Positions 4,646 through 62,656 of a stretch of DNA of 64,000 nt are shown here, one piece after another. The stretch covers positions 1-64,000 of the forward strand of contig OX439049.1 in NCBI GenBank assembly GCA_949317995.1, read 5' to 3'. The stretch comes from Acholoe squamosa (lineage: Eukaryota > Annelida > Polychaeta > Phyllodocida > Polynoidae). Each line of letters begins with the position of its first letter. Within the stretch, counting starts at the first letter, position 1. Both the position numbers and the translations under genes were made by a program. The notes beneath the pieces were generated by a model that was not told the DNA's origin, ran no database searches, and saw only the letters and a list, made by a program, of their open reading frames with translations.

Positions 4646-4896
4646 TTTACCCCCCACGCTGCCCCTCCCCCTCTTGCAAACATGAATTGGGGGTCTTCCC
4701 ACTGTAGTGTTTGCGTTTGCGTTTGCGTTTGCGTTTGCGTTTGCGCTCGATAATTTATAAAATCCCTTTTATATATATATACCCCCCATATAAACTACTA
4801 GCCGCAAACGCAAACGCAAACGCAAACGCCAACACTACAGTGGGAAGACCCCTAATTCATGTTTGCAAGAGGGGGAGGGGCAGCGTCGGGGGTAAA
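4646..4896. repeat. Iteron palindrome P1 (TTTGCG hexamers)
   Basis: A large inverted repeat. The outer arms read ccccctcttgcaaacatgaa and its complement, then gtcttcccactgtagtg. Inside are about six TTTGCG units on the left (4710-4746) and four to five CGCAAA units on the right (4802-4830). The AT-rich centre of about 55 bp contains a run of TATATATATA. The layout resembles viral replication origins in which iterated protein-binding sites flank an AT-rich spacer. The same family occurs at 42986, 56920, 8870, 45375 and 62427. Confidence 0.9.
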
Positions 4897-5222
4897 AATG
4901 CTGTTGCTATGGTAACAGTGGTAAAAGGTCAGTGGGTGTAGTGACCATGGTAACCAAAGGCCCGCCTTATTTACAGTCAACTAAATTATGTTTTAGTACA
5001 TCGCTATCATCCTTGTAACATGGCAAAACATACTTAATGAAACAGTGTTATAGATAAGAAAGTCAGGGGTATTTCCCTGGGTCGCTTGGTACGCCCGGGG
5101 GTTTTCCCGCCCGGCTACTATAGAACCGCTTGAAAAGGGTTGTTATGTGGGTTTTTTTCAATGATTTCGTGTAATGTAGCATAGCTGTTTTCCCTTTTCA
5201 GTTTCATGTTCTTTTAGTTTTC
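4897..5222. other. Repeat flank and upstream region
   Basis: Non-coding. From 4897 to about 5020 it is the reverse complement of 42865-42985 and includes an RFX X-box-like site at 4903-4916 (gttgctatggtaac). The segment 5040-5120 shares pieces with 4160-4215. The last 100 bp form the upstream region of the gene at 5313. Confidence 0.6.
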
Positions 5223-5229
5223 CTATATA
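5223..5229 (+). promoter_or_regulatory. TATA box for the DUF5662-like gene
   Basis: A tatataa motif about 85 bases before the first ATG of the 5313 gene, a suitable distance for RNA polymerase II transcription. Confidence 0.6.
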
Positions 5230-5312
5230 ATCCCATTTCATTGTCATTCTGTTCCACACTTCTCAAGAAGTAGTTACACTGTTCAAATCAACGCGTTTAG
5301 GCTTTGTGCAAA

Positions 5313-5987
5313 ATGGCTGAAGCACCTACACTACCCGTTTTATTATCTCAGGAGGCTGTAAAAGCCTCTTCCAACCTGGTGGTGAAAAGTAACCTTTTTT
5401 GGGTTGTAGAAAAACTGCTCTCTTTAAAAACCCGGGAGGAGCGTGTGGAGTATATAAAAACTAAGAAGTACAGTGACTCTCTTTCTCCAGTTACCAAGGA
5501 TTTTTTGGACAGTGCAATGGAGTTGGAGCGTCAACATTTTTACTTCATGCACAAGTTACTACCGGTGATTGGCATAATTAAGCCAGAGGATAAACCCCAC
5601 GATTACTCCAAGGACGACTTATATAAACTGATCCTTTCCATTAAATGGACCTCGGGAATGAAACTCGGTGAAAAGTTCGATAAACTGTATGATGAGGAAG
5701 TGGAACGGCACTATAGAATGGAGGCACACCATCCAGAACATGAAAAGGTAACAAAAAAAGAGTGTAGTGAAGCAGACATAAAAGAAATGTCCGCTGACCG
5801 CTTAGGTCGCAATCTACAGTTTGGAATGACCGGCCGTGTAGACCATGCTACAATGAAAAAATTCCCTCCAAAATTCTGTGGCAAAAACAATGAAGCTAAA
5901 ACAGCTTTATACTGGAGGGAGGTGGCAAAACACGAAGCAGATGCTGTACGTGTTTTCAACTCTGTTTTCCGTTTTTCCACAAAATAA
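5313..5987 (+). CDS. DUF5662-like protein
   Basis: 224 residues from the first ATG, in the good context aaaATGg. The centre carries an HK...HDYSKDDLY...KFDKLYDEEVERH...HHPEH pattern followed by ADIKEMSADRLGR. This is the His/Asp-rich signature I associate with the DUF5662 family, an uncharacterised probable metal-binding family found in phages and large DNA viruses. A hydrolase role is plausible from the HD/HH residues but unproven. It has a TATA box upstream, sits closest of all genes to the telomere and appears intact. Family placement rests on motif memory only. Confidence 0.65.
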   Translation: MAEAPTLPVLLSQEAVKASSNLVVKSNLFWVVEKLLSLKTREERVEYIKTKKYSDSLSPVTKDFLDSAMELERQHFYFMHKLLPVIGIIKPEDKPHDYSKDDLYKLILSIKWTSGMKLGEKFDKLYDEEVERHYRMEAHHPEHEKVTKKECSEADIKEMSADRLGRNLQFGMTGRVDHATMKKFPPKFCGKNNEAKTALYWREVAKHEADAVRVFNSVFRFSTK

Positions 5988-8869: not shown

Positions 8870-9081
8870 CTTGCAAACATCACATCGGGACTTTTCAACT
8901 TGGCCGGCATTGGCATTGGCATCGACATCGACATCGACATTGGTTTTTTAGTGGGACTTTTTATGTTAAAAGAAGTTTTAGAAATAGACTAACAGTGAAA
9001 AACCGATGTCGATGTCGATGTCGATGTCGATGCCAATGCCAATGCCGGCCAAGTTGAAGAGTCCCGATTTCATGTTTGCAA
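8870..9081. repeat. Iteron palindrome P2 (ATCGAC/GGCATT hexamers)
   Basis: Same architecture as P1 with different hexamers. The arms start ttgcaaacat / atgtttgcaa and contain tcgggac...ttggccgg and its complement. Iterons are GGCATT and ATCGAC at 8905-8940 on the left, with complementary copies at 9004-9047 on the right. The AT-rich centre of about 60 bp is not itself repeated elsewhere. The outer arm tgcaaacat and a ggggagggg tract are shared with the TTTGCG family, showing common descent. Confidence 0.9.
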
Positions 9082-9937: not shown

Positions 9938-10171
9938 AACTAGTAAACTCAGTGAGTCGATTTCTTAGCGTGATAGTGGGTGTGAGTGACATGTGTGGAC
10001 GGTAAAAGGAGGTCAAGGGAGTAAAGGGACGCGCTGAAAGAGGTTCGCCATTTTGAAATTGCACAAGGGAGGTTTGATGTCAGACAGAAGGAAAAACTAA
10101 AGTTACAGGCGTACTTTGGACCACTACACCTCAAAACAGTGTAGGAGTAGGTGAGTGAAAACACTGTGAAC
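9938..10171 (+). promoter_or_regulatory. Upstream region of recombinase gene
   Basis: Short intergenic segment. It contains aggtgagtg just before the recombinase ATG, which resembles a splice donor, but no matching acceptor was identified and the reading frame is continuous. Confidence 0.3.
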
Positions 10172-12985
10172 ATGAATAACGGCAGCAACAGCAACAGTAA
10201 CAACTATGTACCGCAAACTTCGACGTGTTTCACCATTGCCAGCATATTATCATCCACCCCTAGCAACAAGGATTACCGTGCAGAGGCCAGTGAAAATTTA
10301 CACAATGGAGGTGAAAGTGAGGACGATGAAGAGATTGTATCTGCTACTGCTACATCGTCCTGGTCTAAAAACAGTATAAATAACGATCAGGATGAGTCTT
10401 TACTTTACATAGGGTCTGTTGCTAATGGCACATTTTTGCCTTTAACTCAACACGACCCACGTGATGCCGGTGCCACAACCCCTTCTACTCTTTCCTGTTC
10501 TTCTCAAGATCTAGAAGAAGAGGCGATGAATGAAATGCTAAATGTTGATGTCAAGGAAACAGGCCAGGAAGAAAACCACGTTCATAAAACCGGTACTATA
10601 AGAGGGGCGTCTACTGAAAGAACTGTTGCTAAAAGCGATATTTCCACCACTATCACCATGACTCCTGCTGTAAGTACCATGTATCTTAGTGACGCCAAAA
10701 GTGATGCAGGTCACTCGCCCCACCATGGAGAGTCGGGGAGTACCGAGTGTTGCACCACTACTGTACCCATTGAACCCCCTAGCAGTCCCCAGGGAGACGT
10801 TAGTTTACCGCCACCGGAGAGTAAAACCCCACAAAAGAAGGTCACATGTGCCTACTGTGGCGGGTCTGTTGTTCATCTTCCACGACATTTGCGAGGGTAC
10901 CATAACTACTCCATTGAAGCATCGAAGTTGTATGCCAAACAAGCCCGGTTTCATAGCGAGCTTAATCCAGTGAAATCAACTTCAGACTGTAAAATTAACT
11001 TACACTACTCCTGCGCCGTCGAAGGTTGTCATGCTGTTGTAAGACGGGTTAATCGCCACTTGATTCAAAAGCATCGTTTCCGCGTGGGAAGTGAACAATA
11101 TCAACGCTACCACGTCTTGTCTAAATCAGACAACAACAAAAGATATTTACCAAAAAGTAAGTCGGGCTCTAAAACCAAAGACGCAGCTAAAAATGATGAA
11201 GAAATGGAGGTGGAAGAAAATCTTGAAGAGTATGAAGAGGGAGAATGTGAAACCTCTGTAGAACGTGTCGGTGACCTAGTACATGGTTCTTTGTCCCATG
11301 AAAATTCTGATTACATCAGTGCACTGAACTCTTTTCTGAGTGACGAGATGAGAAATGAATTAAACAGATACAAAGAATACCTCATGGATTTCAGTGGTAG
11401 TTTGAAAACTCCAGATGTTGCTAGTCAAATGCAAAGGCAGGTTGGGGAAATCCTAAAGGTATTTGGTGAAGACTTTTTAGATGAAAACCTAACTGAGAAC
11501 CTAGAGAAACTAGAGCGCAATTTCATTAAAGTGATGTTGGCTAAGGGGAAAACAAAACCACTTCAGGCCAGTACGGTTAAAAACTACCTGTTAAGTTTGA
11601 ACAGCTTTGTGCAGTTTGCCAATTTGAAAAACAGAGACTACATGAGACATCGGGTGGTAGAAAGAATAGGGATACAAGTGGGCTTGTGGAACCGTTCCCT
11701 TGGAAAACTGATTGCAGAAAGATCCCACGTGACAAAACAGCAGCACCAAAGGGACACCATATCAGTGGACGAAGTGAATGAATATGTGAACGGAAGTCGT
11801 GCTAAGGAAGCCAAAGAAATCTTTAAGAAATTTAGCGACTCTTCTCTATGTGACATTGGCCCCACAACATACGACCACACGGTTTCCCGTAATTATCTTA
11901 TCATGTCGCTCATGTTAAGAAATGCAACAAGGGCCGGCCCAATCATTAATTTAACCATCGACAACGTGATGCAGGCAAAGGACAACGTGTATAACGGCAT
12001 TCATGTAATGAATATTTCGAAGCACAAGACAGAGTACACATACGGCCCAGCGCAGTTGTCCCTCAAGGAGGAAGATTTTGCTTTTTTACTAACATACATC
12101 AACAAGATTCGACCTGTGGGAGAAAACAAAAACCCGGCAAAAGACAATGTGGTGTTTTTATCATGGAAAGGTTTGGCATTAATGCAGTCACACATAGCTA
12201 ATATAGCCACCAGAGAGTTGAACGAGGTAAGGGGTTGTAAAAAACATGCAAGCTGTACATTGGTGCGCAAATCTACCGTCACCAGAATACTGCCGATGGG
12301 TGTGGGGTCTAAAAATGAACAGGACTTGGCACGTCTAATGAAACACTCTGAAGTAATGCAGAAAAGAGTGTACGATTTGAATAACACAGAGCGGGACATG
12401 GCCCGTATGGGTGATTTAGTGTCAAAAGCTCTCACGGGTAAACAGTTAACAGAGGTAGAGTTAACCGCAGGAGTATCAGCAAAATCCTGCTTGTCGACTC
12501 AAATTGAAAACAGTGCAAGTAATACCTTGCCTGTTACAAACACCAACATGTGTGACGCAACCCAAAGTGCCGTCAATAATACCGGCGAAATGTCCACTGC
12601 TCTTTTTACCACGCCTTGTAATTTTGAAGGTGGAGTTAAAAATGCAGTGAACCTGGACGAGGAATCAATGGCTGCTGAAGAAAACAATGAACTAAATACA
12701 AACAGCATGAACATGACAAAGAGGAAATTTGTGTCTACTGGAAAGGGTCGAAAAAAGTGGCCTCGGTCTCTTAAACAGAAAGTTATTAAACTGTTTAAAG
12801 ATGAAATTGCAGATAGATATGTAACCAACGACATTGTCAGGGACGTTTTGTCTAGAAATCCCAAAGTCTATGATGAAGCTTGTGATTTTTACCAGCTTCC
12901 AAAGGATATTACCCAAGATAAAATCTGTGTAAAAAGAATCTATGACTTGGTTCGATCAGTGTACCGTGAACCTTGTATTATGTAG
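10172..12985 (+). CDS. Zinc-finger tyrosine recombinase (integrase-like)
   Basis: 937 residues from the first ATG. A low-complexity acidic N-terminus is followed by two C2H2-like fingers at about 226-244 and 281-301. A helical core-binding region follows, then a catalytic domain: R587 in NATRAG, a Lys around 617-619, R699 in LVRKS, H725 in LMKHS and the presumed nucleophile Y734 in KRVYDL. The nine-residue His-Tyr spacing is that of lambda integrase; the usual first His of H-x-x-R is replaced by Thr. A basic C-terminal segment (about 860-937) may bind DNA. Such enzymes cut and rejoin DNA through a phosphotyrosine bond; here integration or genome resolution is likely. AATAAA follows at 13329-13334. 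Confidence 0.8.
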   Translation: MNNGSNSNSNNYVPQTSTCFTIASILSSTPSNKDYRAEASENLHNGGESEDDEEIVSATATSSWSKNSINNDQDESLLYIGSVANGTFLPLTQHDPRDAGATTPSTLSCSSQDLEEEAMNEMLNVDVKETGQEENHVHKTGTIRGASTERTVAKSDISTTITMTPAVSTMYLSDAKSDAGHSPHHGESGSTECCTTTVPIEPPSSPQGDVSLPPPESKTPQKKVTCAYCGGSVVHLPRHLRGYHNYSIEASKLYAKQARFHSELNPVKSTSDCKINLHYSCAVEGCHAVVRRVNRHLIQKHRFRVGSEQYQRYHVLSKSDNNKRYLPKSKSGSKTKDAAKNDEEMEVEENLEEYEEGECETSVERVGDLVHGSLSHENSDYISALNSFLSDEMRNELNRYKEYLMDFSGSLKTPDVASQMQRQVGEILKVFGEDFLDENLTENLEKLERNFIKVMLAKGKTKPLQASTVKNYLLSLNSFVQFANLKNRDYMRHRVVERIGIQVGLWNRSLGKLIAERSHVTKQQHQRDTISVDEVNEYVNGSRAKEAKEIFKKFSDSSLCDIGPTTYDHTVSRNYLIMSLMLRNATRAGPIINLTIDNVMQAKDNVYNGIHVMNISKHKTEYTYGPAQLSLKEEDFAFLLTYINKIRPVGENKNPAKDNVVFLSWKGLALMQSHIANIATRELNEVRGCKKHASCTLVRKSTVTRILPMGVGSKNEQDLARLMKHSEVMQKRVYDLNNTERDMARMGDLVSKALTGKQLTEVELTAGVSAKSCLSTQIENSASNTLPVTNTNMCDATQSAVNNTGEMSTALFTTPCNFEGGVKNAVNLDEESMAAEENNELNTNSMNMTKRKFVSTGKGRKKWPRSLKQKVIKLFKDEIADRYVTNDIVRDVLSRNPKVYDEACDFYQLPKDITQDKICVKRIYDLVRSVYREPCIM

Positions 12986-14125: not shown

Positions 14126-14716
14126 ATGCCTCTTTCACATGAAGTAATTTTTGGTAGGGCGTGTTTTGCTTGTGAACAGGGATCAATACTCACAAGTAAA
14201 CCAGATTTATTTCTGAAGCAAATCGAAAATGTTGAGTGTACTCTACAGGAGGAGTACTTTTTGTACGTACCAGACATTTGCACCCTAGACTATATTCATG
14301 AATGGAGTCGGTCTTGTAATGCACAAGATGGAGTTACAGGGATTATTGTTTTAGAGCGCATCACAAAAGAACAAAAATGTGCCACTCTCGCAATTCCTTG
14401 TGGTTTGGCATTGTTTACATGCCCAAAGGACGAAAGAGACATTATTTTACACAGTGCCAAATTTAGTAATGCACATTTAGTTAAAGGTCACATTAAACTG
14501 TTGTGGTTTTCAGTGTTACATATAATAAAACTAAATACACTACTGGCACGTGAGGTGAACGAATTGTGTCATAGCTGGAACAATTTGTGGAATGTTTCCA
14601 TGGACGTTATACACAGAAGTAAAAGGAATACATTGTACCCACATGTTCTACCACAAAAAACTTTTTACGAGAACATGGCCGTACTTCAAAATGTTTTTTT
14701 CAGAATGGAGCACTAA
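14126..14716 (+). pseudogene. N-terminal part of the split primase
   Basis: 196 codons from a good ATG (aacaATGcc). The frame ends shortly after a T7 run at 14694-14700, overlapping the next frame by 125 bases. The following frame carries the primase domains but begins at an internal Met. Added together the two frames give about 1,075 residues, close to the size of herpesvirus UL52 primases (roughly 1,000-1,100). The simplest reading is one gene broken by a one-base shift in a homopolymer, either a real mutation, a programmed frameshift or an assembly error. Alone, this part has no recognised motif. Confidence 0.7.
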
Positions 14717-17354
14717 GGTTAGGTCGGTTCAAGCTGAGTCTTTGTGGTCTAAAGACAATAACAGTTTACCGAGAAATATAAGTGCGTTAGAGCACATGTT
14801 TCTTTCCTTCCATGTTCTTTTGCGGTGGCATAGAGACCGTCATGTCGATCCGTTTACAATGTTAAGACATATTATGAAAAACATAAAAGTAACACAGGAA
14901 TATAGAACGAACGACAAGCAACTAGGTGAGACCCTAGAAGGTGGACTGAAATTTGATCCACGGTACCACGGAATGATGGCAAGACTAACAGGGTGTTATG
15001 GTGATTTACGCAATCAACTAACTGCTGCTTATAAAAAGCTCTGTAATATAATGTTTGACAATGGAGTCATTGTATATAAAGAACTAACAGTTCCAATGCA
15101 ATCAAGACGTACAGTATTTAAAGTTGTTCCATTGTATACTGGCCATGTCACTGAAAAGTTTATTGAAAATTCGATTGCCTCTGTACCTTTGTCTGTTTTT
15201 GACACTTTCGCTATACAAAAATGGTGCAAAAGTAGAAAAACTGATTTGCTAGAACACACTCTCAATCCAAATGTAGTTTTCCAATCAGTTTATAAAGATG
15301 TAAGACCCGTATTCGATGGAAACAACAAAACCTTCCTGCGGCTGTATGGCAATTGTGAGGATCTTTTACAGATCATAAATAAAAAAGAGCCTTTATATTA
15401 CACTTTTCAGAACTTGGGCACGTTAGAGCATGGACGGCCAGAAACACCAGCTTTGCCTTTAATTGGATTGACGAAAGCCACCATTCCTCGATCTAGATCA
15501 CCCTTTCATTTAAGTGGTAAATCAGTGACTAAAATTAGGTTAGTGGAGGCAGGAGAACATTGTACACCCATATGGGCAAGACCCACAGAAAATGGCGGCA
15601 TGAACTTTATGCGAATTGTTCCCGCCTTAAAGAAACCCTGCCAAACTAAACAAAAAATGTCTTCTGTGGCTTCAATGCAGGACTTAATAACAAAAAACAT
15701 GTATCCATTTAAAGAAAACAAATTGGTTTCAGGAACCACTAACGAGTATTTACAGAGCGGTCTTCACTGGTCTAGTTTTGTGGCTGACATTGACCTTAAG
15801 CTTGCCGGTAAAGACGTACCTGTTCCGGACATTAATGCCTTGAGTAAAGATGTGGTTGCCGCTTTTGATGCTATGTTTCAATCAATTTTTCCAGGTCAGA
15901 AAATAAGAAAACATCTAGTCTTTTGTTCGACCCGCGACAGTGATACCATAAAAATTGGATTGCACCACCATGCACTGTTACCAACCGGTCTCGTATTTAC
16001 ATCTTCTGCATGTCGAGATTTAGCCGGTATGTTGGAAACCATTCGCCATGCCTATCCCAATACTTTAGGAATTGAAACATGGGAAGACGAGCCTGCATAT
16101 GATTTAAGCGTGTATCCCATTCCAACAAAAGCTGGTGATCCTGTAGGCCACTGCCTAAGAGGTCCTTCACAAGTTAAGCATGATGGCACACGTCAATTAA
16201 AGTGTGTTTTAAATACAAGCGACACGCCTCTTAAAATAGATGACATACTGGTTCATGGGCCTCAGTATACTACCCGGGAAGATGGGGGGAAAGTAATTTT
16301 TGGTCGCGTTGTTAAAAATTTTGAAGGAGTGCAACACCTTAAAGACGTGGCTTTTTTTAAGGATTATGAAGCTAAGGTGATGACAAAAAATATGAATCAC
16401 GTTTGCTTTAAAAATGTGAACGATATTGCCAGGGAAATCAATAAAAGAAGTTACATATTTCCAGAAGGAAAAAACCCGGTTCCTTTATTGTTGGAAATTC
16501 TCAACAGTTTATGGAAGCAAACTAACAGTGGCAAATTTCTTTTGGTTCAACACCTTAAAACAAAAGAAGGAAGAAATGGCAAAAGATATGATAGTACATT
16601 CATTAATAATGTGGACAGGTTCTCCAGGTTCGTCTACAACAATGCAGAAAAAACCATAAATCTTGTCATAAACAATGATGCAAATTGTAGCATGCCTTTA
16701 TGTATTCGATATCCACATAACACACGTTCCGGTAAAGGGGTTCAAGTAACTGTGAATTACTCCTCTAAAATGATAAAGTTTGTGCTGTTTATGTCCAAGT
16801 GCTTTAAAGCCAGATGTCAGGCTAACTTTGATTTAAACTTCTTTTTACCAAACATAGTTTTACCAATGCCTAACATCTTTATTAGTACCCCTGTGCTCAA
16901 AGGCTGTGATAAAATGTGTGCTACATTCTGTGGATCAAAAGTAAGGGTTATACAACTGAATCCATGTTTTTCTTCAGAGCAATATCCATTTACAAACATG
17001 TACGAGGATGAAAAGATAGAAGATGCGTCTCTCAGTGAGGTTGCTCAGTTTGAAAAAATAGAAATAGCTCACGAGGGAGAGGGAGTTAACAAGTACTTAC
17101 AAAACAAAAGTCTAGAAGACACTGTTCGCTGTCTGTACATGTTTGTACCAAATAGCATACTGGCATTTTGTTTGATAGATAGCATGTATGTAGTTTGTTT
17201 CTCGAGACCTCGTCCTGCTATAAATACAAGCCAAAAAAGTACTGACTATGTTATAGTGTCGATGAACCCTGTCTTTATATATCAATACCTTAATAAGAAA
17301 AATGTTATAAGTCAAACAATTTTAAACGAACTAAAAATGTTAATGGTCGATTAA
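14592..17354 (+). CDS. UL52-like DNA primase (main part)
   Basis: 920 residues; the true start is probably in the upstream frame (see 14126). It has the archaeo-eukaryotic primase motifs: catalytic ADIDLKL (D399, D401), the H-rich second motif KIGLHHHALLP (about 454-464) and a third acidic motif YDLSVY (D504), followed by LRGPSQVKH. The C-terminus has a CHCC zinc site, C704-x4-H709-x27-C737-x4-C742, almost the same spacing as in herpes simplex UL52. It would synthesise RNA primers at the replication fork with a helicase partner. AATAAA lies at 17400-17405. Placement in the herpes primase family is fairly secure; integrity of this copy is doubtful. Confidence 0.82.
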   Translation: MFPWTLYTEVKGIHCTHMFYHKKLFTRTWPYFKMFFSEWSTKVRSVQAESLWSKDNNSLPRNISALEHMFLSFHVLLRWHRDRHVDPFTMLRHIMKNIKVTQEYRTNDKQLGETLEGGLKFDPRYHGMMARLTGCYGDLRNQLTAAYKKLCNIMFDNGVIVYKELTVPMQSRRTVFKVVPLYTGHVTEKFIENSIASVPLSVFDTFAIQKWCKSRKTDLLEHTLNPNVVFQSVYKDVRPVFDGNNKTFLRLYGNCEDLLQIINKKEPLYYTFQNLGTLEHGRPETPALPLIGLTKATIPRSRSPFHLSGKSVTKIRLVEAGEHCTPIWARPTENGGMNFMRIVPALKKPCQTKQKMSSVASMQDLITKNMYPFKENKLVSGTTNEYLQSGLHWSSFVADIDLKLAGKDVPVPDINALSKDVVAAFDAMFQSIFPGQKIRKHLVFCSTRDSDTIKIGLHHHALLPTGLVFTSSACRDLAGMLETIRHAYPNTLGIETWEDEPAYDLSVYPIPTKAGDPVGHCLRGPSQVKHDGTRQLKCVLNTSDTPLKIDDILVHGPQYTTREDGGKVIFGRVVKNFEGVQHLKDVAFFKDYEAKVMTKNMNHVCFKNVNDIAREINKRSYIFPEGKNPVPLLLEILNSLWKQTNSGKFLLVQHLKTKEGRNGKRYDSTFINNVDRFSRFVYNNAEKTINLVINNDANCSMPLCIRYPHNTRSGKGVQVTVNYSSKMIKFVLFMSKCFKARCQANFDLNFFLPNIVLPMPNIFISTPVLKGCDKMCATFCGSKVRVIQLNPCFSSEQYPFTNMYEDEKIEDASLSEVAQFEKIEIAHEGEGVNKYLQNKSLEDTVRCLYMFVPNSILAFCLIDSMYVVCFSRPRPAINTSQKSTDYVIVSMNPVFIYQYLNKKNVISQTILNELKMLMVD

Positions 17355-40445: not shown

Positions 40446-40571
40446 GACGACCGTTCACCAACACTCAAATGTTCAAGATACACTTACTGTCTATGTTTAC
40501 ATGCTGTTTAATAGTACATTTCCTTCTATAGCAAAAACACTCCTATAACTTAAAGACAGTTTACATGAGTG

Positions 40572-41510
40572 TCATGACTTCTGATACCAAGGAACAACTT
40601 GGTCCCCTTCCTGTTCCACAGACGGTTTATTTTTACTCAAGGAGGAAACCTTTTTATCTCCTTTTTCTCCGTATCGTTGTTGGTTTTCCACCCAATTAAA
40701 CCAAGGATGCAGGAGAATATCTGTAACAGCTAAGCGTCTTTCTGGATCTTTGTGCAGCAAGCATTTTATTAAACAACGAGCCTGGGAACTTAGTCCATTT
40801 GGTATAGTGTATTTGCACAGTTTTATTTTTTGAAACAGCTTTTCTGTTTCTCGGGCAACAAAGGGATAAGTTCCCGTTAAGATGCAATATAAGATCACTC
40901 CCAAATGCCAAACACTTCCTGCTATTGGAGAAAACGAGCCTTTGCCCAAATACTCAGGAAAGACGTAGCAAAGTAACATACGTCTCTGTAATGCAGGGGT
41001 GTCGACGCTTAATTGACCACCTTCCAGTAAGTGTCCTAGGAGGTTTAGCTTTATTTCAGTTTGTGCATCGTTTGTAATAACACATTTGGTCAAAGCAAGA
41101 TTCCAAGGCACCATCCCGTTCTCATTAAGAGCACACACGGCCACAACGATCTGACAAAAAACACGGGCAGCATCAGCCTCCTTCAATCCAGATTTTTTCT
41201 CACGAAGAAAACTATGTAGAGTAGTGCTGTATTTCGGCACAAAAATTAAAGCACAGTTATGTCTTTTTACGATTTCAATGTCGATCATGTGCTCCTTTAC
41301 ATTTTGCCATTGTTCTGTGAATACCACATTGTTTGCAATGGGTAAAGCTTTGCACTGATATTCCTTTCCTGTGTTTATGTTAAAACAGTCGAATTCTTTG
41401 TAAGTCCCTTGTACAGTGACATTTAGTTTAGTCAGCACGTAATCCCCGATTTGTTCACCCACAGGAGGTGCACATATGTCTGTCTCTTCAGCACCTGGTT
41501 CCGTAGACAT
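40572..41510 (-). CDS. Tribbles-like pseudokinase B
   Basis: 312 residues from the ATG at 41510; a longer frame exists only with a TTG start. It is close to copy A throughout: IGDYVLTKL, TGKEYQCKALP (here the Lys equivalent to the kinase ATP-binding Lys is retained, whereas copy A has Arg), PWNLALTKC in place of HRD, LLGHLL in place of DFG, GSVWHLGVILYCILTGTYPF, and ILLHPWFNWVENQQRYG. The tail has DQVVP followed by WYQKS. Retention of the COP1-type motif in both copies implies selection on that interaction. Divergent from the BIR gene at 41747 over a 236 bp shared upstream region. Confidence 0.85.
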   Translation of the reverse strand: MSTEPGAEETDICAPPVGEQIGDYVLTKLNVTVQGTYKEFDCFNINTGKEYQCKALPIANNVVFTEQWQNVKEHMIDIEIVKRHNCALIFVPKYSTTLHSFLREKKSGLKEADAARVFCQIVVAVCALNENGMVPWNLALTKCVITNDAQTEIKLNLLGHLLEGGQLSVDTPALQRRMLLCYVFPEYLGKGSFSPIAGSVWHLGVILYCILTGTYPFVARETEKLFQKIKLCKYTIPNGLSSQARCLIKCLLHKDPERRLAVTDILLHPWFNWVENQQRYGEKGDKKVSSLSKNKPSVEQEGDQVVPWYQKS

Positions 41511-41746
41511 GATGGCTATGATGCACAAACACTGTTTAAGTGCTGTTTAGCTACCTTACTCCTCGAGCTTCAACACAGCACTGTCCCACAACACACCATG
41601 CGTTTGTGTCCCCTGCATGGGGAAGTGTCCGTATGGAGGTCAGGGACCACAGACCCTCTGCACATATAGTCTTTTGAGAAAGAGGTGCTCCTTTATAACT
41701 GATCGACATAACAGTAAAGCTACACTTAAATTTCAAGTCATACACG
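41511..41746. promoter_or_regulatory. Divergent promoter region, Tribbles B / BIR
   Basis: Shared 5' region. catatagtc (about 41661) and tttataact (about 41692) are TATA-like on the plus strand, ahead of the BIR gene. No clear minus-strand TATA was assigned. Confidence 0.4.
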
Positions 41747-42539: not shown

Positions 42540-42985
42540 ATATCAAAAGACTTAAAAGTGAAACAAATGGAACTTTAAAGTACTTACCGGTTAAGTGCTT
42601 AAACACCAACCCGCCTGTTCCCACGGGCTTTTTTAGCCCACTTAAAAGGGTCTATATCTCCTTTTTCCTGTCCCCTCAGGATGTGTGTGGTGCACATATC
42701 CGCGGGCACTGACACATTCCTCTGTTAAATTATCAACCTGTGAAGCACGGGATAGCCACTTAGTGCCGCTAAAGTGTTGTAAAACACAAATCAATTAATC
42801 AAAACCGCCTGTTCCCATAGACTTTAGTGTTAAAACTGCTTTCTATAGGATAACTGTCCTATGTTATAAGGATGATAGCAGTGTACTAAAACATAATTTA
42901 GTTGACTGTAAATAAGGCGGCCCTTTGGTTACCATGGTCACTGCACCCACTGACCTTTTACCACTGTTACCATAGCAACAGCATT

Positions 42986-43235
42986 TTTACCCCCCGCGCT
43001 GCCCCTCCCCCTCTTGCAAACATGAATTGGGGGTCTTCCCACTGTAGTGTTGGCGTTTGCGTTTGCGTTTGCGTTTGCGTTTGCGGGTAGTAATTTATAT
43101 GGGGTATATATATATAAAAGGGATTTTATAAATTATCGAGCGCAAACGCAAACGCAAACGCAAACGCCAACACTACAGTGGGAAGACCCCCAATTCATGT
43201 TTGCAAGAGGGGGAGGGGCAGCGTGGGGGGTAAAG
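42986..43235. repeat. Iteron palindrome P5 (TTTGCG), centre inverted
   Basis: Same arms and hexamers as P1 and P3, with about six TTTGCG units on the left and five CGCAAA on the right. The AT-rich centre (ttatatggggtatatatata...aaattatcgag) is in the opposite orientation to P1 and P3. The left flank carries an X-box-like site at 42966-42979 (gttaccatagcaac), the right flank ends in cagggttagggttac. Confidence 0.9.
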
Positions 43236-43634
43236 ATAAATGCTATTGTACAATTAAAACGGGTGTAAGGGTGTAATACAGGGTTAGGGTTACACTTTCC
43301 CGTCCCCTGGAGTGTGTGTACTGACACATTGATTTATGAATTTTTTTAATGTAGTTCTCGCCGTGAAGATGAAAATGGCATAAAAACAGTTACACATTTA
43401 ATAATTACACTTTATTCAAATGTACAGTGAATGTAAATTATAATGTAGCCACTGACACATTGATCTATGAAATGCAAACACCGACACATTCATTTATAAA
43501 ATTGTGTAATGTAGTTCTCACCGTGAATATAACCTCGGGTATAGAAATGGCGTAGCTTAATAACCATGCCAACCACCATCATGTTACTTTAAAAACTCAA
43601 CAGGGAATATATCTCCACTTTCCCGTCCCCTCAA

Positions 43635-45374: not shown

Positions 45375-45580
45375 CTGCAAACATGACATTGGGACTCTTC
45401 AACTTGGCTGGTCCTGGTCCTGGTCCTGGTCCTGGTCCTGGTCCTGATTTTTTCATACAGTTTCTATTGTAAAATCTTATTTTAAGTAAAAGAGTCTATG
45501 TAAATATCAGGACCAGGACCAGGACCAGGACCAGGACCAGGACCAGCCAAGTGGAAAAGCCCCGATGTCATGTTTGCAGA
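45375..45580. repeat. Iteron palindrome P6 (TCCTGG hexamers)
   Basis: Arms ctgcaaacatgacattggga and complement, then acttggctgg. About six TCCTGG units at 45409-45446 and six CAGGAC units at 45509-45546 flank an AT-rich centre of about 60 bp. No Rep gene or relic was recognised near it. The architecture is the same as P1-P5 but the hexamer is unrelated. Confidence 0.9.
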
Positions 45581-50643: not shown

Positions 50644-53600
50644 TTAATTAGTGTCACTGTCACATAGTTCGAGCTCGTCGATGTTTTCATCGCTTAAACA
50701 TGCATCTTCTTCTACTAATTCTAGCTTGTCACTGTTTTTCTCAGTGAACAATGTATCTTGATCTGATTGCTGTTCTTCAGCGGCTACATTATCAAACAGA
50801 GGTTTTGCCAAAGGCGGTTCATTCTCTTTAGAGGATAAAACTTTTTGTCTTTTGTTTCCTTCCCACACCGCCACTGTAAACCCAGTCGGCTGTCCGCTCG
50901 AGTCTTTGGTTGTGTACATTGAAAACTTGTCGTAAGTTCTCTTGTTGGTTGACCTGTAGTTGTTCGAAAGATGCCTGGGTGGAAAACCAGTAACAAACTG
51001 TGAAAATTCTAAATCATTGTACAACATCGATAGCATCTTACGGTTTATTCTCAAGTCCCTCTTTATACCCCTCGTTTTCTTGGGATCGACTGGATCTACA
51101 AACACGTGCACTGGCTTAATGTAGCTATCTGTGTCTGGGTCGTACTGAGAAAATGCAACTGTCAGAGCTTCACGGACAGATATGGCACAATAAGTGCGAT
51201 CTGAAGCCATGGTGCGATGGAGACGGTACTGTGTGGAGTGGTGATCGTTTAGGCATTTAAGGGCCTTGTCTACTTTCATGAGGCGATCTCCTTTTGCTGC
51301 GAGGGCTTCATCTTCCTTTTGAAAGTCTCGACCAAACCCGTTTGTTCTGACTGCATACTTCAAAGTTTTATCAAGTATGCATCTCACTCGTGCCGTCAGT
51401 TGTATCATGTCGGCTAGAGGCGGGGTTCCACGTTTAACATCAATGAACAAATAAACTTCATCGAATTCATCTAGAATGGATACCCCAGCTCCTAAAACAT
51501 TAGTCGAAATTGCACATGTTGAAGTTTCAGCCCATCTCTTGATCGCCTCTGGCTTATCCACGTCGGTCGGGGTCATAGATGTTAAAACGCACACGTTGGG
51601 AACTAGGTTCTCCAGTCCCAGTCTTTTAAATGTCGCAACCACGGCACACTTTATTGAAATGGCCGTAATAGTAGAGGAAGCATAAACAACTACTCTTTTG
51701 TTTTTCTTGTAAACGGAATTTAACATTTCGTACATTAAATCGTCATATGATGGAAACTCTTCAAGGCGTGAAAACACAGAAGGAATTGGCTTTAGGCTGT
51801 CTTGTACCACAACAATGTCCACGGGATCCATCTGCAGCGAAACCTTTCTTTGTTCGGGATGATAACGAGGCTTACCGTCCTTTACAACACAAACTTTTTT
51901 ACTTAGCCATTTTCTCCACTCCTTAATACTTGTTGGTCCTTCTCCTTTAACTTTGGGAAGAAGCTGTGGCATTTTAGTTTTATCAATATCATTCAACAAA
52001 TCTTCTAAAGCGTCCGGCCATTCCCACATGGCAGTGTAGGCCTCTACCAGCTGTGGGGTCATTGCAGCTTCGATTAAAAACACTGTGCGAGCTTTTCGCA
52101 TGCGACGTATGAGTTCAGTAACCACAATCACATCCTTTTCTACATCGATTTGAGTGTAGCATCCTTTTTGTACTCTCTTTGTCCATTCGATAAACATGTT
52201 ACCTACACACATGGCCAGCTCGTCCAATATGAGAACGTCATGCTCCTCAGGAAGACATGTAATGGAGTTAACACAGGCACTAGCAAACAAGCCATGCTTA
52301 TCAGAAGTTGTCATCAATTTGCTCTGTTCTCCTGCCTGTTGAAGCAACTTGTCCTTCGAGTTGTGAAAATAGGCTTTTGTAGTAAACGCTACTTGATTTC
52401 TACCCGTGGGATGCATTTTCTCCACAGCGTCAGCTGTATTTTTCACAAGTAACATTCTCGGTGCTAAATAGCCTACGTTTTTAGCCGTACCCCTTCGCAA
52501 TTGATCTGCTGCAAATTCCAATATGGCGTTCGTTTTGCCAACACCCATCCGTCCAGTAATACGTATGAGCCTTCTCCTTTCGTTGTGAGTGCCGGCAAAT
52601 TTATTGTCTTTTTGACACATGGTCTGCACAAATTTTCGTAAATTTGTCCCCGTTTCAAGAACCATCCATCCATTACATTTGGCAGGAAAGTTAAAAGGCA
52701 CATTGTTACATTCATCGTTTAAAGCAGTTTTAAGGTCACCTGCACGCTGATCGATAACTGTACATTTGAGTTGCTGTCTCAGGTATTCAATGGCGTATGC
52801 ACAGCAAGTCTTGTCTTTTGAGATGCCCTTTGCCCCATCGACCACGGCTTTTCTCTTCTCTTTGTTCTTAAAATCAGTCCACTCATACAGATACTCGTCC
52901 TCTAGTTCTTTCGAAGTGCAAAGTGAAGCAAGGACGGGCAAAAAGGCATCATGAAAGTCTATCTTTCTCAAACCCTTTGCGTCTAGTGCATCAGTTATAT
53001 CCCGGTCAGATTTTATAACAAGCGGTTCCTTTTTTTCAGACCCAGTATATTTAACTTTGTGAACAAGGTTCTTTTTAGTTTTAACCATATCAACCGTCCA
53101 CTTTTGTCCACTGTACACTCGAAGTTCACCCGGTATCTTTAATTTGTCTATAAATTCCGTGTCGACAGTTACGTCCACTTTCCATCCTCCTTGCAGCTCT
53201 GTGTCTGCAGGTGATGTATTACTGCTGCTCAGCTTTTTCTCCAAAGTTAATGGCACGCGCAGGTCACCTTTGTCCGACAGTTTACTTTGTCCCAGCATCC
53301 TAAAGTTACGGTTAGTGGTGTAAACTTTAGTGTCTATGTCAGTGACTTCTTCCCCTCTTTTATTAATGTAAGTAACATCATCACCATGCTTCCTTTTAAA
53401 CCACTCCACAAACCCATACATGAACCTTTTCATGTCGGTTTTTACCCTTTTAAAAATGGCATCAGGGAAAATAACATGGTAACTATGTTTTACACCTTCT
53501 CTGTGAGAGCTAGCAACCACTACACGGTCAAAAAATGACTTGTATTGAGCAAACTCTCGCATTCCTTTAACTATAACATCCAATCGAATAGAACCGCAGT

Positions 53601-53871
53601 CCCAAGGTCTCTCCAAGTCCAAGTACAATCTAGTTGGAATGTTGTCTTTTAGTATCTCGTATAAATGCATATCTTTGTTGGTAAAAAATGCCATATGTCC
53701 CTCTCTGGTGCACTCATGACGAAAGGAAGTGTTTTGACACCGAATGACAGGAAAATCTTTTGCTCCAGAAGACGGATACAGGTCAGCTGCATATGCTAAG
53801 CCCAACTTAGATTTCAGGGCTCTATCCTGTCTTCTATAGCGCTCGAGTATAGTTAACTTACAGGTATTCAT
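50644..53871 (-). CDS. Primase-helicase fusion (AEP primase + UL9-type SF2 helicase)
   Basis: 1,075 residues from the first ATG. The N-terminal part has primase-type motifs: RLYLDLE (D85, E87), KHSYHVIFP (His at about 132) and DIDTKVYTTNRNFRMLG (Asp about 180, basic residues after). A helicase follows: Walker A GRMGVGKT at about 440-447, DELA at about 550-553 as the Walker B/DExx motif, VVVYASSTITA and STNVLGAGVSI for later motifs, and TARVRC for motif VI. This resembles herpesvirus origin-binding helicases (UL9 / Herpes_ori_bp) fused to an archaeo-eukaryotic primase. It would open origins and unwind or prime DNA. The C-terminus is acidic. It is a second primase in addition to the UL52-like gene. 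Confidence 0.82.
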   Translation of the reverse strand: MNTCKLTILERYRRQDRALKSKLGLAYAADLYPSSGAKDFPVIRCQNTSFRHECTREGHMAFFTNKDMHLYEILKDNIPTRLYLDLERPWDCGSIRLDVIVKGMREFAQYKSFFDRVVVASSHREGVKHSYHVIFPDAIFKRVKTDMKRFMYGFVEWFKRKHGDDVTYINKRGEEVTDIDTKVYTTNRNFRMLGQSKLSDKGDLRVPLTLEKKLSSSNTSPADTELQGGWKVDVTVDTEFIDKLKIPGELRVYSGQKWTVDMVKTKKNLVHKVKYTGSEKKEPLVIKSDRDITDALDAKGLRKIDFHDAFLPVLASLCTSKELEDEYLYEWTDFKNKEKRKAVVDGAKGISKDKTCCAYAIEYLRQQLKCTVIDQRAGDLKTALNDECNNVPFNFPAKCNGWMVLETGTNLRKFVQTMCQKDNKFAGTHNERRRLIRITGRMGVGKTNAILEFAADQLRRGTAKNVGYLAPRMLLVKNTADAVEKMHPTGRNQVAFTTKAYFHNSKDKLLQQAGEQSKLMTTSDKHGLFASACVNSITCLPEEHDVLILDELAMCVGNMFIEWTKRVQKGCYTQIDVEKDVIVVTELIRRMRKARTVFLIEAAMTPQLVEAYTAMWEWPDALEDLLNDIDKTKMPQLLPKVKGEGPTSIKEWRKWLSKKVCVVKDGKPRYHPEQRKVSLQMDPVDIVVVQDSLKPIPSVFSRLEEFPSYDDLMYEMLNSVYKKNKRVVVYASSTITAISIKCAVVATFKRLGLENLVPNVCVLTSMTPTDVDKPEAIKRWAETSTCAISTNVLGAGVSILDEFDEVYLFIDVKRGTPPLADMIQLTARVRCILDKTLKYAVRTNGFGRDFQKEDEALAAKGDRLMKVDKALKCLNDHHSTQYRLHRTMASDRTYCAISVREALTVAFSQYDPDTDSYIKPVHVFVDPVDPKKTRGIKRDLRINRKMLSMLYNDLEFSQFVTGFPPRHLSNNYRSTNKRTYDKFSMYTTKDSSGQPTGFTVAVWEGNKRQKVLSSKENEPPLAKPLFDNVAAEEQQSDQDTLFTEKNSDKLELVEEDACLSDENIDELELCDSDTN

Positions 53872-53932
53872 TTTTGATGTTGTTCTTATGCAAGCAGGTT
53901 GCAAACTGAAGTAGCCTGGTTTATTCCCAGCC

Positions 53933-56880: not shown

Positions 56881-56919
56881 ACAAGGTTACACCCGTTTCA
56901 ATTGTAAAACAGCATTTAT

Positions 56920-57164
56920 TTTTACCCCCCACGCTGCCCCTCCCCCTTTTGCAAACATGAATTGGGGGTCTTCCCACTGTAGTGTTGGCGTTTGCGTTTG
57001 CGTTTGCGTTTGCGCTCGATAATTTATAAAATTCCTTTTATATATATATACCCCATATAAATTACTAGCCGCAAACGCAAACGCAAACGCAAACGCAAAC
57101 ACTACAGTGGGAAGACCCCCAATTCATGTTTGCAAGAGGGGTAGGGGGAGCGTGGGGGGTAAAG
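56920..57164. repeat. Iteron palindrome P3 (TTTGCG hexamers)
   Basis: About five TTTGCG units on the left and five to six CGCAAA on the right; AT-rich centre in the same orientation as P1. The left flank (ttacacccgtttcaattgta) matches the right flank of P5 inverted. An X-box-like cttgccatggtaac is at 57170-57183. Confidence 0.9.
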
Positions 57165-58013
57165 ATGCTCTTGCCATGGTAACAGTGTCTGAAATGTATT
57201 GTTTGTGTAGTAAATAAAATGCTTAAAAAACAAAGATGGTGCATTTACTGTTGTTTTCCTTTTTCATTTACTGTAAATAAGGCCTACAATATGTATTTAT
57301 GTGATGCGCTAATTCAAAATAACACACATCGACAATAGTATATAACAAATAAGACGATTTTATATATAAACAGCAACGGGCTGGCTGCGAACACAATGAA
57401 AGAAACAGATGCCGGCCATTGCACAGACCGGCCACCTAGAGGGGGCGGGGAGAACCAAACCTAACAGAGGCTCCCCCTGGAGAAAAGAGCGGACACCAAT
57501 AGTAGCAGCAGTACTGTTTCAGGCAATACACACACGCATGGGGGTGCTCACATAAACACTAAAGGGTATTTGTACCCCGTTGTTTTTTTTGCCCAGCTCG
57601 CAGTGTACCAAGTCAGTTTGGTTTGCCATACACAATGGGTATAATTTTATGTTCGACTATAGAAAATAGCCTTTCACCATGGAAAGAAAGAGGACTATAA
57701 TTTATTTTGGTTTTTTTCCCTCCTGCCCCAGGCTGCCCTGTGGTAAATCAGTCTGTTTCGACTGTTTATTTCAAACGGTGGAATAAACAGAGAGTATAAT
57801 AAGAGCATTTCGTATGTATTACATAAAAATTTTTATGGTGAACAATAACAAGTATGGTTACTTAACAGGGTTTTTTTTATTTTGCAACACGGCTTCGAAT
57901 CAATACATTAATACATCACTAGATTTTCAAACTAACGTCGGTTATAATACCTTAAAGGTAATGCTGACACTATGGATTAACGTCTTAGTCTTTCAGACGG
58001 TTTCAAAACACCT
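57165..58013. other. Non-coding spacer
   Basis: No supported gene; the plus-strand frame 57814-58221 overlaps the 3' end of the Rep-like gene and is a shadow. It contains a GC-rich patch (ggccacctagagggggcgggg, about 57430) and polypyrimidine tracts. Nothing else recognised. Confidence 0.5.
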
Positions 58014-59492: not shown

Positions 59493-59696
59493 ATCTGTAC
59501 ACTTTTTCACTGAAGACCAGACGAAAAATGGCAGGGGAAGCCGTGAAGCGAGGTTGTTTCCTGCCCCTCCCTCCCACCTGCAACCTTTACACCACCCTTC
59601 TTCTTTCCTATTGGTCGAGCCACCTTATTTATAGCAAGGACAACAGCAAGGAGAAAACACATTGTAACTAGAGGAAGCCCGATCACCTAGTGCATA
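59493..59696. promoter_or_regulatory. Divergent promoter, Rep-like copy 2 / BIR 2
   Basis: tatttata (59626-59633) reads as a TATA-like box on both strands, 64 bases before the BIR ATG at 59697 and about 134 before the Rep ATG at 59492. An inverted CCAAT box (attgg, about 59610) is adjacent. Confidence 0.55.
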
Positions 59697-60140: not shown

Positions 60141-60306
60141 TAGACAAACCGTAGAACAAATAAAACATCATCTGAAATTAATTTATTTGTTTTATTTCGT
60201 TTTTCAAGCATGTTGTTTGGTTAAATAATGTAGTATTGGTTGCCATGATGATGACCTTACGTACACTTTAATCAGTAGAGCTAAACTATGGTACTGTTTC
60301 AGGAGG
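60141..60306. terminator. Convergent 3' gap
   Basis: Short gap holding AATAAA at 60159-60164 for the BIR gene. A small piece of dispersed-repeat sequence (ggttgccatgatgatg) occurs at about 60238. Confidence 0.5.
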
Positions 60307-62271
60307 TCAAATGTCTATTTTTAGCTTTTTAGTAAGAGGTAAATCATCATCATCATCATCGTCATCATCATCGTTGTCACTCTCACTGCTTTCCGCGGTC
60401 TCATTGTGGCATATTGTTTTTGTTGTTGTAGCTTTATGCATCGGCTCGAATATAATAGTCCTGAACAAATCCTTGTACCTAGCAATTTCCTGGTCGTCGA
60501 TAGAGTGCACCCGCATGCACCTTTTCATGTCTTCAGGGTGATTTGCATATATGGTTCCTGCAAGCTTTTTAACATCTTTGGGTCTCTTTGCGACATGTTC
60601 TAGAATTCCAGAAAGGGATTTGCTCTCGAAGAACTCGGGGATGTGAAAGCATGCTCGAAGCTTTTCCCAAGCCCTTTTGGTTGTTGTTACCTTATCTGTT
60701 CCTTTGGTACTTTCTTTGCATGCAAATTCGCACAACCTTTGTACTTCTGAATAGGTAACTAGCTTTTCTGTTTTATGTGAGGACAGTCCATGGCTTTCGT
60801 AGGAAAACAGACTGCGCTGTTTAAGGTCTTCTGTTTCAACAAGGTTCTCAATGGCCTTTTCTAACCATCGCCCTCGTTTTTGCACGTTTTTAATGGAATA
60901 AAGGCCTTCCACAATTTCTTCCCATTTTACGTTTAAGCTGGGTATTGCTGTTCCACAGCAACAAACTAGCATGTCTATAAAAGCCTCTCTTGTACACTCT
61001 GCAGGTTGAGTAGTTTTATACCTAACATCAAACAGACATTTGGCTTTTTCAATTTGGGCAAAAAGGGCCATAATTTTCCCTTGATTAGTACGGCGTTTGT
61101 TTAAGACCCATTTTATTGTCGTAAACATTAGTCGTATCTCATCTTTAAATTCCCCCTCCGTCCAATCTGTCGGAAGCATGCAGGCCTTTTTGTCCTCATT
61201 TATACAGCCATCTAGCCTTACAATTTCAAATCGTCGTTCCAGCTGTTGGACCACTTCCTTAGATATTACTCTTCGTTGTAGTTTTGCATTCCAACTTCCA
61301 TATACATCAAAAATAGAGTTATTTGAAAGCATTATAACCTGAACGTCAGACCTTGGCTCAAAACTTTCACCGTGGCTTTTGCAGTTTCCTCTGAATCCTA
61401 AAGCCGACTTACTCGTGAGTATTTTTAGCTGGGAAAACTCCAACTTGTTTGAAGGGCTTACCTCCTCAAAGATTAAAAATTGTGCTTTTCTTGGTATAGA
61501 AATCCAGTTGTTAGAATCGTTGACAAAATGTGCATTAAATGACTCTCTAAATTCTTCCATCGCATGGGTTTTACCAAAGCCGGGTGTTTTAGAATAAATG
61601 TAGTAGTGTTTGAACTTAACATCTGTTATATTGGGACGTCCAATAAAGCTTATTTTAGTTTTAGGGTACATATTTGTTCGAACAGATAGAGTTTTATCAG
61701 TTTCTGATGGTTTCCACTGTTCAAAGACAACTGTATATTCACCTTTTAAATCCGGTTTTAATTCAGTATGGCGACTTATTCTTTCTATAAGGTTTTTGCT
61801 GTTTTCAATTTGAACTGCCTTTTCAATGGAAACTGTACCTTGTTTTATAAGTTGGGTAGTAGGCACGTTAGCTATTATTTCATTTCTGAATTTGTTTTTT
61901 TGCCTTTCTATGTAGTCGTAAACCATAGTTTTTATCGCAGCATCTTCAAACATCTTTCCTACTCTGTAGATTATTTTGTTCGAGTCATAGTCATTTTGAA
62001 AGTACTCCTGCATAAACTTTTCCGGCAAGGGCATAGTACTTAAATTTCTAACAGGTACATGTTTTATATCTAATTGGCGTTTTAACGTATCCATTCCAGA
62101 GTTTAGTTGAATTAGCTTATTTGAAATCATTAATAAATGTCCCTCTTTTGTCATGGCAACATTTTGTATGTCTCTTTTTGTTGTGAAATCTTTTAGTTTA
62201 TCCCAAAAGTGTGCCTCTTTCAGGTCAGCTGGATTTAAGGAGACCAAAAGTTTTCTGCTTGCTACCTTCAT
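60307..62271 (-). CDS. Rep-like protein with SF3-type helicase (copy 3, longest)
   Basis: 654 residues, the fullest family member. An N-terminal region of about 200 residues without a recognised nuclease motif is followed by SFIGRP and KHYYIYSKTPGFGKTHAME (Walker A), AQFLIFEEV (Walker B), RSDVQVIMLSNNSI (motif C with the SN pair typical of SF3) and LERRFEIVRLDG. A C-terminal region absent from copy 2 (about 480-620) is followed by a run of Asp and LPLTKKLKIDI, a likely nuclear signal. Palindrome P4 lies about 160 bases upstream of its start, making this the best Rep-origin pair in the window. The family could derive from a captured Rep of a small DNA virus. Confidence 0.8.
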   Translation of the reverse strand: MKVASRKLLVSLNPADLKEAHFWDKLKDFTTKRDIQNVAMTKEGHLLMISNKLIQLNSGMDTLKRQLDIKHVPVRNLSTMPLPEKFMQEYFQNDYDSNKIIYRVGKMFEDAAIKTMVYDYIERQKNKFRNEIIANVPTTQLIKQGTVSIEKAVQIENSKNLIERISRHTELKPDLKGEYTVVFEQWKPSETDKTLSVRTNMYPKTKISFIGRPNITDVKFKHYYIYSKTPGFGKTHAMEEFRESFNAHFVNDSNNWISIPRKAQFLIFEEVSPSNKLEFSQLKILTSKSALGFRGNCKSHGESFEPRSDVQVIMLSNNSIFDVYGSWNAKLQRRVISKEVVQQLERRFEIVRLDGCINEDKKACMLPTDWTEGEFKDEIRLMFTTIKWVLNKRRTNQGKIMALFAQIEKAKCLFDVRYKTTQPAECTREAFIDMLVCCCGTAIPSLNVKWEEIVEGLYSIKNVQKRGRWLEKAIENLVETEDLKQRSLFSYESHGLSSHKTEKLVTYSEVQRLCEFACKESTKGTDKVTTTKRAWEKLRACFHIPEFFESKSLSGILEHVAKRPKDVKKLAGTIYANHPEDMKRCMRVHSIDDQEIARYKDLFRTIIFEPMHKATTTKTICHNETAESSESDNDDDDDDDDDDLPLTKKLKIDI

Positions 62272-62426
62272 TGTAAACTAAGGTATATTCAACAAATAAT
62301 ATATCTGTCTACTGTAACGTCTTAAGAATTACTAATAAGTAATTTACTTGACGAAACAATATATACACACTACGTGTGATAGATTTCTTATTTTTACCTA
62401 TATGAAACAATAGCTTTGGTTTACTT
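62272..62426 (-). promoter_or_regulatory. 5' region of Rep-like copy 3
   Basis: AT-rich, with atatat stretches at about 62300 and 62360 that could serve as TATA elements on the minus strand; none is clearly placed. It separates the gene from palindrome P4. Confidence 0.35.
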
Positions 62427-62656
62427 ATCTTACCTGCCTCCCCCTCACATAAATCTTTGGTCCCTTCCTATGTACTACTTCTGCTTCTGCTTCTGCTTCT
62501 GCTTCTGCTACTGTTTTTTATATAGGGTTTTACTATTAAAACATATTTCTTGGGGATATGGATACCAGAAGCAGAAGCAGAAGCAGAAGCAGAAGCAGAA
62601 GCAGTACAAAGAAAGGGACCAAAGATTTATGTGAAGGGGAGGCACGTAGGGTAAAG
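62427..62656. repeat. Iteron palindrome P4 (TTCTGC hexamers)
   Basis: Outer arms cctccccctcacataaatct and complement, then ggtccctt and aagggacc. About five CTTCTG units (62478-62510) and six AGAAGC units (62572-62604) flank an AT-rich centre of about 60 bp. The arms differ from the ttgcaaacatg arms of the other palindromes except for the C-rich outer tract, so this is the most diverged member. Confidence 0.9.

Follow-up and report, generated by a model that had tools for sequence, protein, structure and literature searches.

Palindromes with exchangeable tandem units in herpesvirus-lineage DNA inside a telomere of Acholoe squamosa: candidate replication origins

Background

In herpes simplex virus the origin OriS has boxes for the origin-binding protein (OBP) that are inverted around an AT-rich spacer, which may bend and melt, and herpes simplex virus 1 (HSV-1) has three origins, as described in PMC12543377. 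Here we report on six palindromes, considered as candidate origins, in the first 64 kb of a contig of the polychaete Acholoe squamosa (contig C15, 66.3 Mb, OX439049.1 of assembly GCA_949317995.1; positions 1 to 64,000 are hereafter referred to as the window; the genome comprises 1.48 Gb in 63 contigs). Like OriS and OriL, for which PMC12543377 describes inverted initiator sites around an AT-rich spacer, they have mirrored sites around an AT-rich centre, and the DNA that carries them encodes a herpes capsid protein, a terminase and a family-B DNA polymerase. They differ from OriS/OriL in that each side carries a tandem array of a 6- or 7-nt unit, with at least six different units in one proviral family, in that the palindromes are many, and in that no UL9-family match was obtained among the proteins scanned (see below).

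The terminal repeats of adeno-associated virus (AAV) and other parvoviruses are palindromes in which short Rep-binding units stand in tandem on either side. The present palindromes share the layout of short tandem units, have SF3-like genes nearby and form two-sided junctions that resemble double-D repeats; however, their carrier is large and herpes-like, they are also found internally, and no HUH nuclease motif was seen by eye in the SF3-like proteins. In CRESS-DNA viruses such as geminiviruses the iteron sequence diversifies and the origin layout stays, mainly between species. Here the unit sequence likewise varies and the layout is kept, but the variation is within one genome, on both arms, and the units have apparently been exchanged by recombination.

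Herpes-lineage DNA adjoining or within telomere repeats is described for acipenserid herpesvirus 3 (AciHV-3), human herpesvirus 6 (HHV-6) and Marek's disease virus (MDV) in PMC12031113, and PMC10871703 presents endogenous nimaviruses as large viral DNA lying in telomere repeats and encoding a tyrosine recombinase, typically one with a C2H2 domain. The locus studied here differs from the former in the presence of palindrome copies near many contig ends of one genome and of a tyrosine recombinase-like gene. With the nimaviruses it shares viral DNA in telomere repeats and a gene of tyrosine recombinase type, here recombinase-like, but the virus lineage is different and the string "palindrom" is absent from the text of PMC10871703. 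In the present host, herpesvirus-lineage DNA is found together with a tyrosine recombinase-like gene inside telomeric repeat, and many contig ends of this one genome have related palindromes nearby. In the open-licence literature (titles and abstract starts) we did not find a palindrome family of this kind described.

Architecture of the palindromes

All six palindromes follow one plan, i.e. outer arm, tandem array, AT-rich centre, reverse-complement array and mirrored outer arm (p1 to p6; Table 1). As inverted repeats they have arms of 70-111 nt with a complementarity of 86-98%. A script that searches for a period-6 run and then its reverse complement within 200 b returned these six in the window and none else, and the 12 period-6 runs of at least 20 b in positions 3801-64000 were all (12/12) inside them; 60 dinucleotide-preserving shuffles of this interval gave 0 period-6 runs and 0 palindromes. 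The six positions and the common architecture reported in a first-pass annotation of the window are thus borne out. Its AT-rich centre of 50-60 bp is present in all six, but the measured gaps range from 53 to 63 b (57, 63, 53, 59, 55 and 54 b for p1 to p6; A+T 72-81%), and its four hexamer types hold for the window, but related copies outside it add two more units, ATGGCT, which defines another palindrome type, and the 7-mer GGTCCGG, so the family is not hexamer-only.

The GTTTGC palindromes p1, p3 and p5 are copies of one another (92-94% identity in the best orientation). Their arms are related to those of p2 and p4 (TGCAAACATGA..GGG..CTTC) and weakly to those of p6. Among the AT-rich centres, those of p2, p4 and the ATGGCT type are related, the score for p2-ATGGCT being reached by 0 of 2000 shuffles and that for p2-p4 by 3 of 2000. 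Homology of all centres was considered and is not upheld, the support being limited to these three, which are linked through p2. We also noted two RFX X-box-like sites in the window, at 42966 and 55693 (2 vs 0.13 expected from shuffles); that at 42966 adjoins a GTTTGC palindrome.

Copies across the genome

Besides the window, we examined 20 stretches of 10 kb each as well as smaller pieces chosen for their palindromes; the continuation of C15 was examined as separate 10 kb pieces (e.g. L010, L012 and L013). The search for array, centre and complementary array beyond the window, which the first-pass annotation had proposed as a check, raised the number of period-6 palindromes to 57 in all this sequence, the window included, with gaps of 45-63 b and an A+T fraction of 0.71-0.81. 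Genome-wide, (GTTTGC)4G gave 234 forward and 231 reverse matches, for which the control was the same repeat in another phase and as such uninformative; among the matches listed (100 of 465) all were at most 176 kb from a contig end. A degenerate arm pattern gave 134 + 128 matches vs 2 + 1 in its control, and those listed on contigs of known length were within approximately 300 kb of an end, further listed places being on C10, C21, C38 and C40. Since matching palindromes recur on C1, C3, C4, C6, C7, C9, C11 and C14, i.e. on other chromosome ends, an assembly artefact at hairpins is unlikely. In a viral contig collection the GTTTGC pattern matched six contigs, and a scan of the same collection with the primase, SF3 and primase-helicase proteins (see below) gave no relatives.

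Unit exchange and arm symmetry

To the 40 places with p2/p4-type arms that were taken from the degenerate-arm list four others were added, and three of these 44 that are without the p4 centre were set aside. The remaining 41 p4-centre palindromes, which are not independent because many are duplicated copies found at several chromosome ends, have GGTCCGG on both arms in 30 cases and GGTCCT on both arms in 10; one is mixed, with GGTCCT and GGTCCGG together in one array and GGTCCGG alone in the opposite one, and none has opposite units. The earlier statement that both arms always carry the same hexamer applies, for the unit, to 40 of these 41, with one exception.

The unit at a given position can differ between chromosome ends. 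Specifically, p4 has GGTCCT in the window vs GGTCCGG at the matching place on C4, and the centre is the same and the flanks near-identical. The right inner arm of p4 carries TTCCACTTGG, which is otherwise met with GGTCCT copies, and the change at p4 would therefore fit an import of the core from a GGTCCT copy. Moreover, in pieces L082 and L083 the flank of the p2 locus is attached to a flank and core of p4 type, and at L025:9000-9360 a GTTTGC-type outer arm is joined to a p4 core. Comparisons of iteron specificity are usually made from one virus species to another. Here, chromosome ends of a single genome have different units at one place, around a shared centre and between near-identical flanks, so that exchange of origin-like sequence can be traced within it. 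At the ATGGCT locus beyond the window, eight substitutions and one indel of 15 nt separate the arms on C15 from those on C4, each occurring identically in both arms; leaving small indels aside, the flanks have 6 substitutions in 476 b on one side and 0 in 483 b on the opposite side.

Across the 28 of 29 GTTTGC palindromes that could be scored, 950 of 980 inner-arm positions are mirrored; most of the misses (25 of 30) are in L032 and L041, which have 23 and 22 mirrored positions out of 35 in an ungapped count. The array lengths behave differently. For six alleles of p6 the left and right copy numbers are (5.8, 6.8), (4.8, 5.8), (4.8, 7.8), (6.8, 4.8), (6.8, 4.8) and (4.8, 6.8), the difference between C15 and C4 at p1 and p3 is confined to one array, and on C7, C9 and C14 a short stretch of the ATGGCT palindrome is missing from just one of the arms. 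Array lengths are independent in the two arms, and therefore the arms are similar, not continuously equalised. The change in p6 copy number between C15 and C4 had been taken as a sign of mirrored evolution, a reading that was dropped as four more alleles have independent arm lengths. These independent lengths argue against constant conversion from arm to arm, and exchange of whole cores together with a need for matching sites on both sides fits the data better than routine hairpin copying. Of the idea that symmetry is kept by conversion or selection, what stands is that nearly all copies examined have one unit on both arms, but constant conversion is disfavoured by the array lengths.

Flanks and segment junctions

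GTTTGC copies are situated at segment junctions and the other palindrome types inside segments. The outer flanks of 29 GTTTGC palindromes are of five types (A to E), which occur in four pairings, B-C (14), A-D (6), A-C (5) and B-E (4), where the junction counts exceed the events, several of the 29 being duplicated chromosome ends; an earlier and stricter flank classifier left two copies unclassified. In two of the four B-E palindromes the centre is reversed relative to the flanks, and the segments p1-p3 and p3-p5 have the same flank type at both ends. The homology of C7, C9, C11 and C14 to C4 breaks off approximately 35 b short of the ATGGCT palindrome on C4. A role as recombination sites, one of two functions put forward in the first-pass annotation, is supported by these reassorted flanks and by the recombinants between palindrome types.

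The A-D units are gene-poor and arranged in tandem with a palindrome at each junction, the palindrome spacing being 4.64 kb on C4 and 3.8-4.4 kb on C1. Tandem units of approximately 4 kb at C4:86.7-91.4 kb (L025 and L026) and C1:127.005-127.014 Mb carry GTTTGC, GGTCCGG and GGTCCT palindromes. No open reading frame (ORF) longer than 103 aa was found in the unit part on L025 and no open stretch of more than 85 codons in that on L026, and these units without long ORFs are possibly a satellite of the virus.

The carrier DNA and its telomeric setting

We show by comparison of predicted proteins that the carrier is herpesvirus-lineage DNA, because the same chromosome end encodes a capsid protein, a terminase and a family-B polymerase, the three products with matches of this kind among 20 ORFs scanned beyond the window. 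The herpes terminase C-terminus (L010:1412-2953) matches PF02499 with 37.6 bits (cut-off 22.8) and, in the Protein Data Bank (PDB), tripartite terminase subunit 3 (E 2.3e-9). The herpes major capsid protein (L012:1287-4904) matches PF03122 with 26.4 bits (cut-off 25) over residues 831-906 only, and herpes capsid entries in the PDB with E 0.006 and weaker; a whole-genome search for the Herpes_MCP family gave nothing, and its 14 controls likewise, so that it was uninformative. The family-B DNA polymerase on C15 scored 81.3 bits (cut-off 23), its best PDB matches being cellular pol delta, with herpes polymerases weaker.

A second, interstitial CTAACC tract is found at C15:129,069-129,278 (L013), in the same orientation as that at C15:1-3798 (one chromosome end examined). 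With telomeric tracts on both sides, approximately 125 kb with herpesvirus-lineage genes is enclosed within the telomere. The viral array lies between the two tracts, and beyond that in L013 comes a block of satellite-like repeats. The first part of C4 is a collinear copy of this chromosome end, the long matching blocks being 96.6-99.7% identical, with much divergence in the tandem-repeat block. Blocks of approximately 160 b tandem repeats (43.5-55.7 kb in the window, approximately 54-77 kb on C4) differ between C15 and C4, and C4 has a 14.5 kb insertion at 15.7-30.2 kb, absent from the matching place on C15. The longest ORF in this insertion has 801 aa; it and another of 663 aa gave no Pfam match.

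Candidate initiator proteins

Two groups of proteins in the window are candidates for binding the arrays (Table 1). The members of one are SF3-like, to judge from Walker-type motifs; DUF5906 was matched by 1 of 20 family members. In addition to p6, the ATGGCT palindrome on C7 is positioned upstream (approximately 110 b) of an SF3-like gene. The other candidate is a primase-polymerase with an SF2 helicase part, which matches human PrimPol by profile (9e-5). PDB searches with the primase and SF3 families, as single sequences or profiles, gave no meaningful match.

Table 1. Palindromes and other features of the window (positions in the 64-kb stretch; a dot marks features without strand)
Feature	Position	Strand	Remarks
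p1	4643..4899	.	Unit GTTTGC, 6.5 + 4.5 copies; flanks A/C
p2	8871..9081	.	Mixed array, GGCATT giving way to GACATC, the two arms in mirror order
p3	42983..43237	.	Unit GTTTGC; flanks C/B; centre inverted vs p1; hairpin z -28.5
p4	45375..45579	.	Unit GGTCCT; counterpart place on C4 has GGTCCGG
p5	56918..57166	.	Unit GTTTGC; flanks B/E
p6	62425..62654	.	Unit CTTCTG; 154 b upstream of SF3-like gene
SF3-like helicase paralogue, candidate initiator	60307..62271	-	Walker-type motifs
Further SF3-like paralogues	58014-59510, 62930-63997, 36301-37728 (divergent)	- (all)	Motifs
Primase-polymerase + SF2 helicase protein, candidate initiator	50644..53904	-	ResIII 24.7 bits, cut-off 22.5
Telomere repeat CTAACC at chromosome end	1..3798	+	3798 b opening the window
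Tyrosine recombinase-like protein	10151..12985	+	PF00589 21.8 bits, below cut-off 27.1
UL52-like primase	14592..17354	+	Herpes_UL52 20.2 bits, just below cut-off 21

Origins and alternative explanations

On balance, we lean towards the palindromes being replication origins, or origin-derived elements, of a herpesvirus-lineage virus that resides inside host telomeres in several near-identical copies. The AT-rich centre would act as the unwinding element and the mirror-image arrays as multi-copy sites for a viral initiator, the same protein assembling on both sides, as with the herpes OBP at Box 1 and Box 2; the SF3-like paralogues or the primase-helicase are candidate readers of the arrays. Whole cores may move as cassettes by recombination, and a need for matching sites on both arms would keep the unit symmetrical. 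Origins were the other function put forward in the first-pass annotation, and the inverted arrays around an AT-rich centre fit the OriS plan and the carrier is a herpesvirus, but origin activity and protein binding are inferred. The same holds for the proposed diversified binding specificity: the units do differ, but the binding proteins are candidates. On our best reading of the sequence, the new aspect would be that herpes-type origins with inverted sites have units in tandem that can be exchanged. Which initiator pairs with which site is thereby open to a direct test with purified proteins.

Several observations weigh against origins of this type. Six origin-like palindromes in 60 kb are many for a herpesvirus, and the array copy number is unequal between the arms of one palindrome (e.g. 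at p1). PF02399 (the UL9 family) was not matched in the primase-helicase or three relatives, other ORFs of at least 150 aa being partly scanned, and in the list tested no divergent ORF start is less than 3 kb away from p4 or p5. Moreover, the relation between the ATGGCT and p4 centres is by itself unconvincing (264 of 2000 shuffles reach the score), and the p1 and p6 centres have no convincing relation to other centres. As a more far-reaching and tentative version, one herpesvirus lineage might have several distinct origin classes, each with its own SF3-like initiator and with swappable cassettes, the approximately 4 kb units being origin-bearing satellites that ride on the virus; we consider this rather doubtful, and if each class does have its own initiator, origin identity would be a modular and fast-changing trait.

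Sites that serve primarily in recombination or as segment junctions, through whose inverted repeats the virus would link, invert and concatenate its segments and whose arrays would be for a nicking or terminal-resolution protein, not for an origin initiator, would fit the five flank types in four pairings, the two orientations of the B-E centre, the like flank types at the ends of p1-p3 and p3-p5, and the palindrome at every junction of the tandem gene-poor A-D units; double-D junctions of AAV inverted terminal repeats and the isomerisation of herpes segments offer comparisons. However, p2, p4, p6 and the ATGGCT palindromes are inside segments, and the junctions could be a by-product of homology among dispersed subtelomeric palindromes, ectopic exchange being common in subtelomeres, and we regard this explanation as unlikely. 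Transcribed elements or promoters, i.e. long hairpin RNAs or bidirectional regulatory regions with compensatory mirrored changes, would agree with the p3 hairpin, 28.5 s.d. more stable than shuffles, with the ATGGCT locus, where every difference between the C15 and C4 arms is mirrored, and with the two palindrome types just upstream of SF3-like genes. Nevertheless, the window has no Rfam match at gathering thresholds, tandem identical short units would be unusual for RNA stems, and for p1, p3, p4 and p5 the closest divergent ORF start among those tested is 405 b to 3.5 kb away; we consider this explanation quite improbable.

Finally, a non-autonomous transposable element of the miniature inverted-repeat (MITE) or foldback type with internal tandem repeats was considered, given the numerous matches to (GTTTGC)4G and the degenerate arm pattern and the TA dinucleotide that, by eye, flanks the C-rich ends of GTTTGC copies. 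Yet the flanks recur in few types and are not unrelated, the copies among the matches listed are near contig ends, and whole cores and units are swapped at one place; furthermore, by eye only, no clear target-site duplication was seen, nor was an empty site among the sampled copies. We therefore judge this very improbable, and the concern that the palindromes might prove to be a known transposable element is weakened by the recurring flanks and the copies near contig ends, none having been identified.

Other genes of the window

The translation of the tyrosine recombinase-like gene has zinc-finger-like motifs (by eye). Herpes_UL52 was matched by three of nine members of the primase family; the primase frame is split in the window, with an N-terminal piece at 14126-14716 in another frame, and the C4 copy (L018:129-3353) is an uninterrupted ORF of 1075 codons. 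Two membrane-protein-like ORFs, 17502-19649 and 25516-27894, are related (27% identity), one with a weak Baculo_F match below cut-off, and a third fusogen-like protein was rejected as a relative (no detectable relation to the two, E 0.072). A kinase pair in tandem (39504-41528) has Pfam matches above cut-off, and the two proteins are 59% identical.

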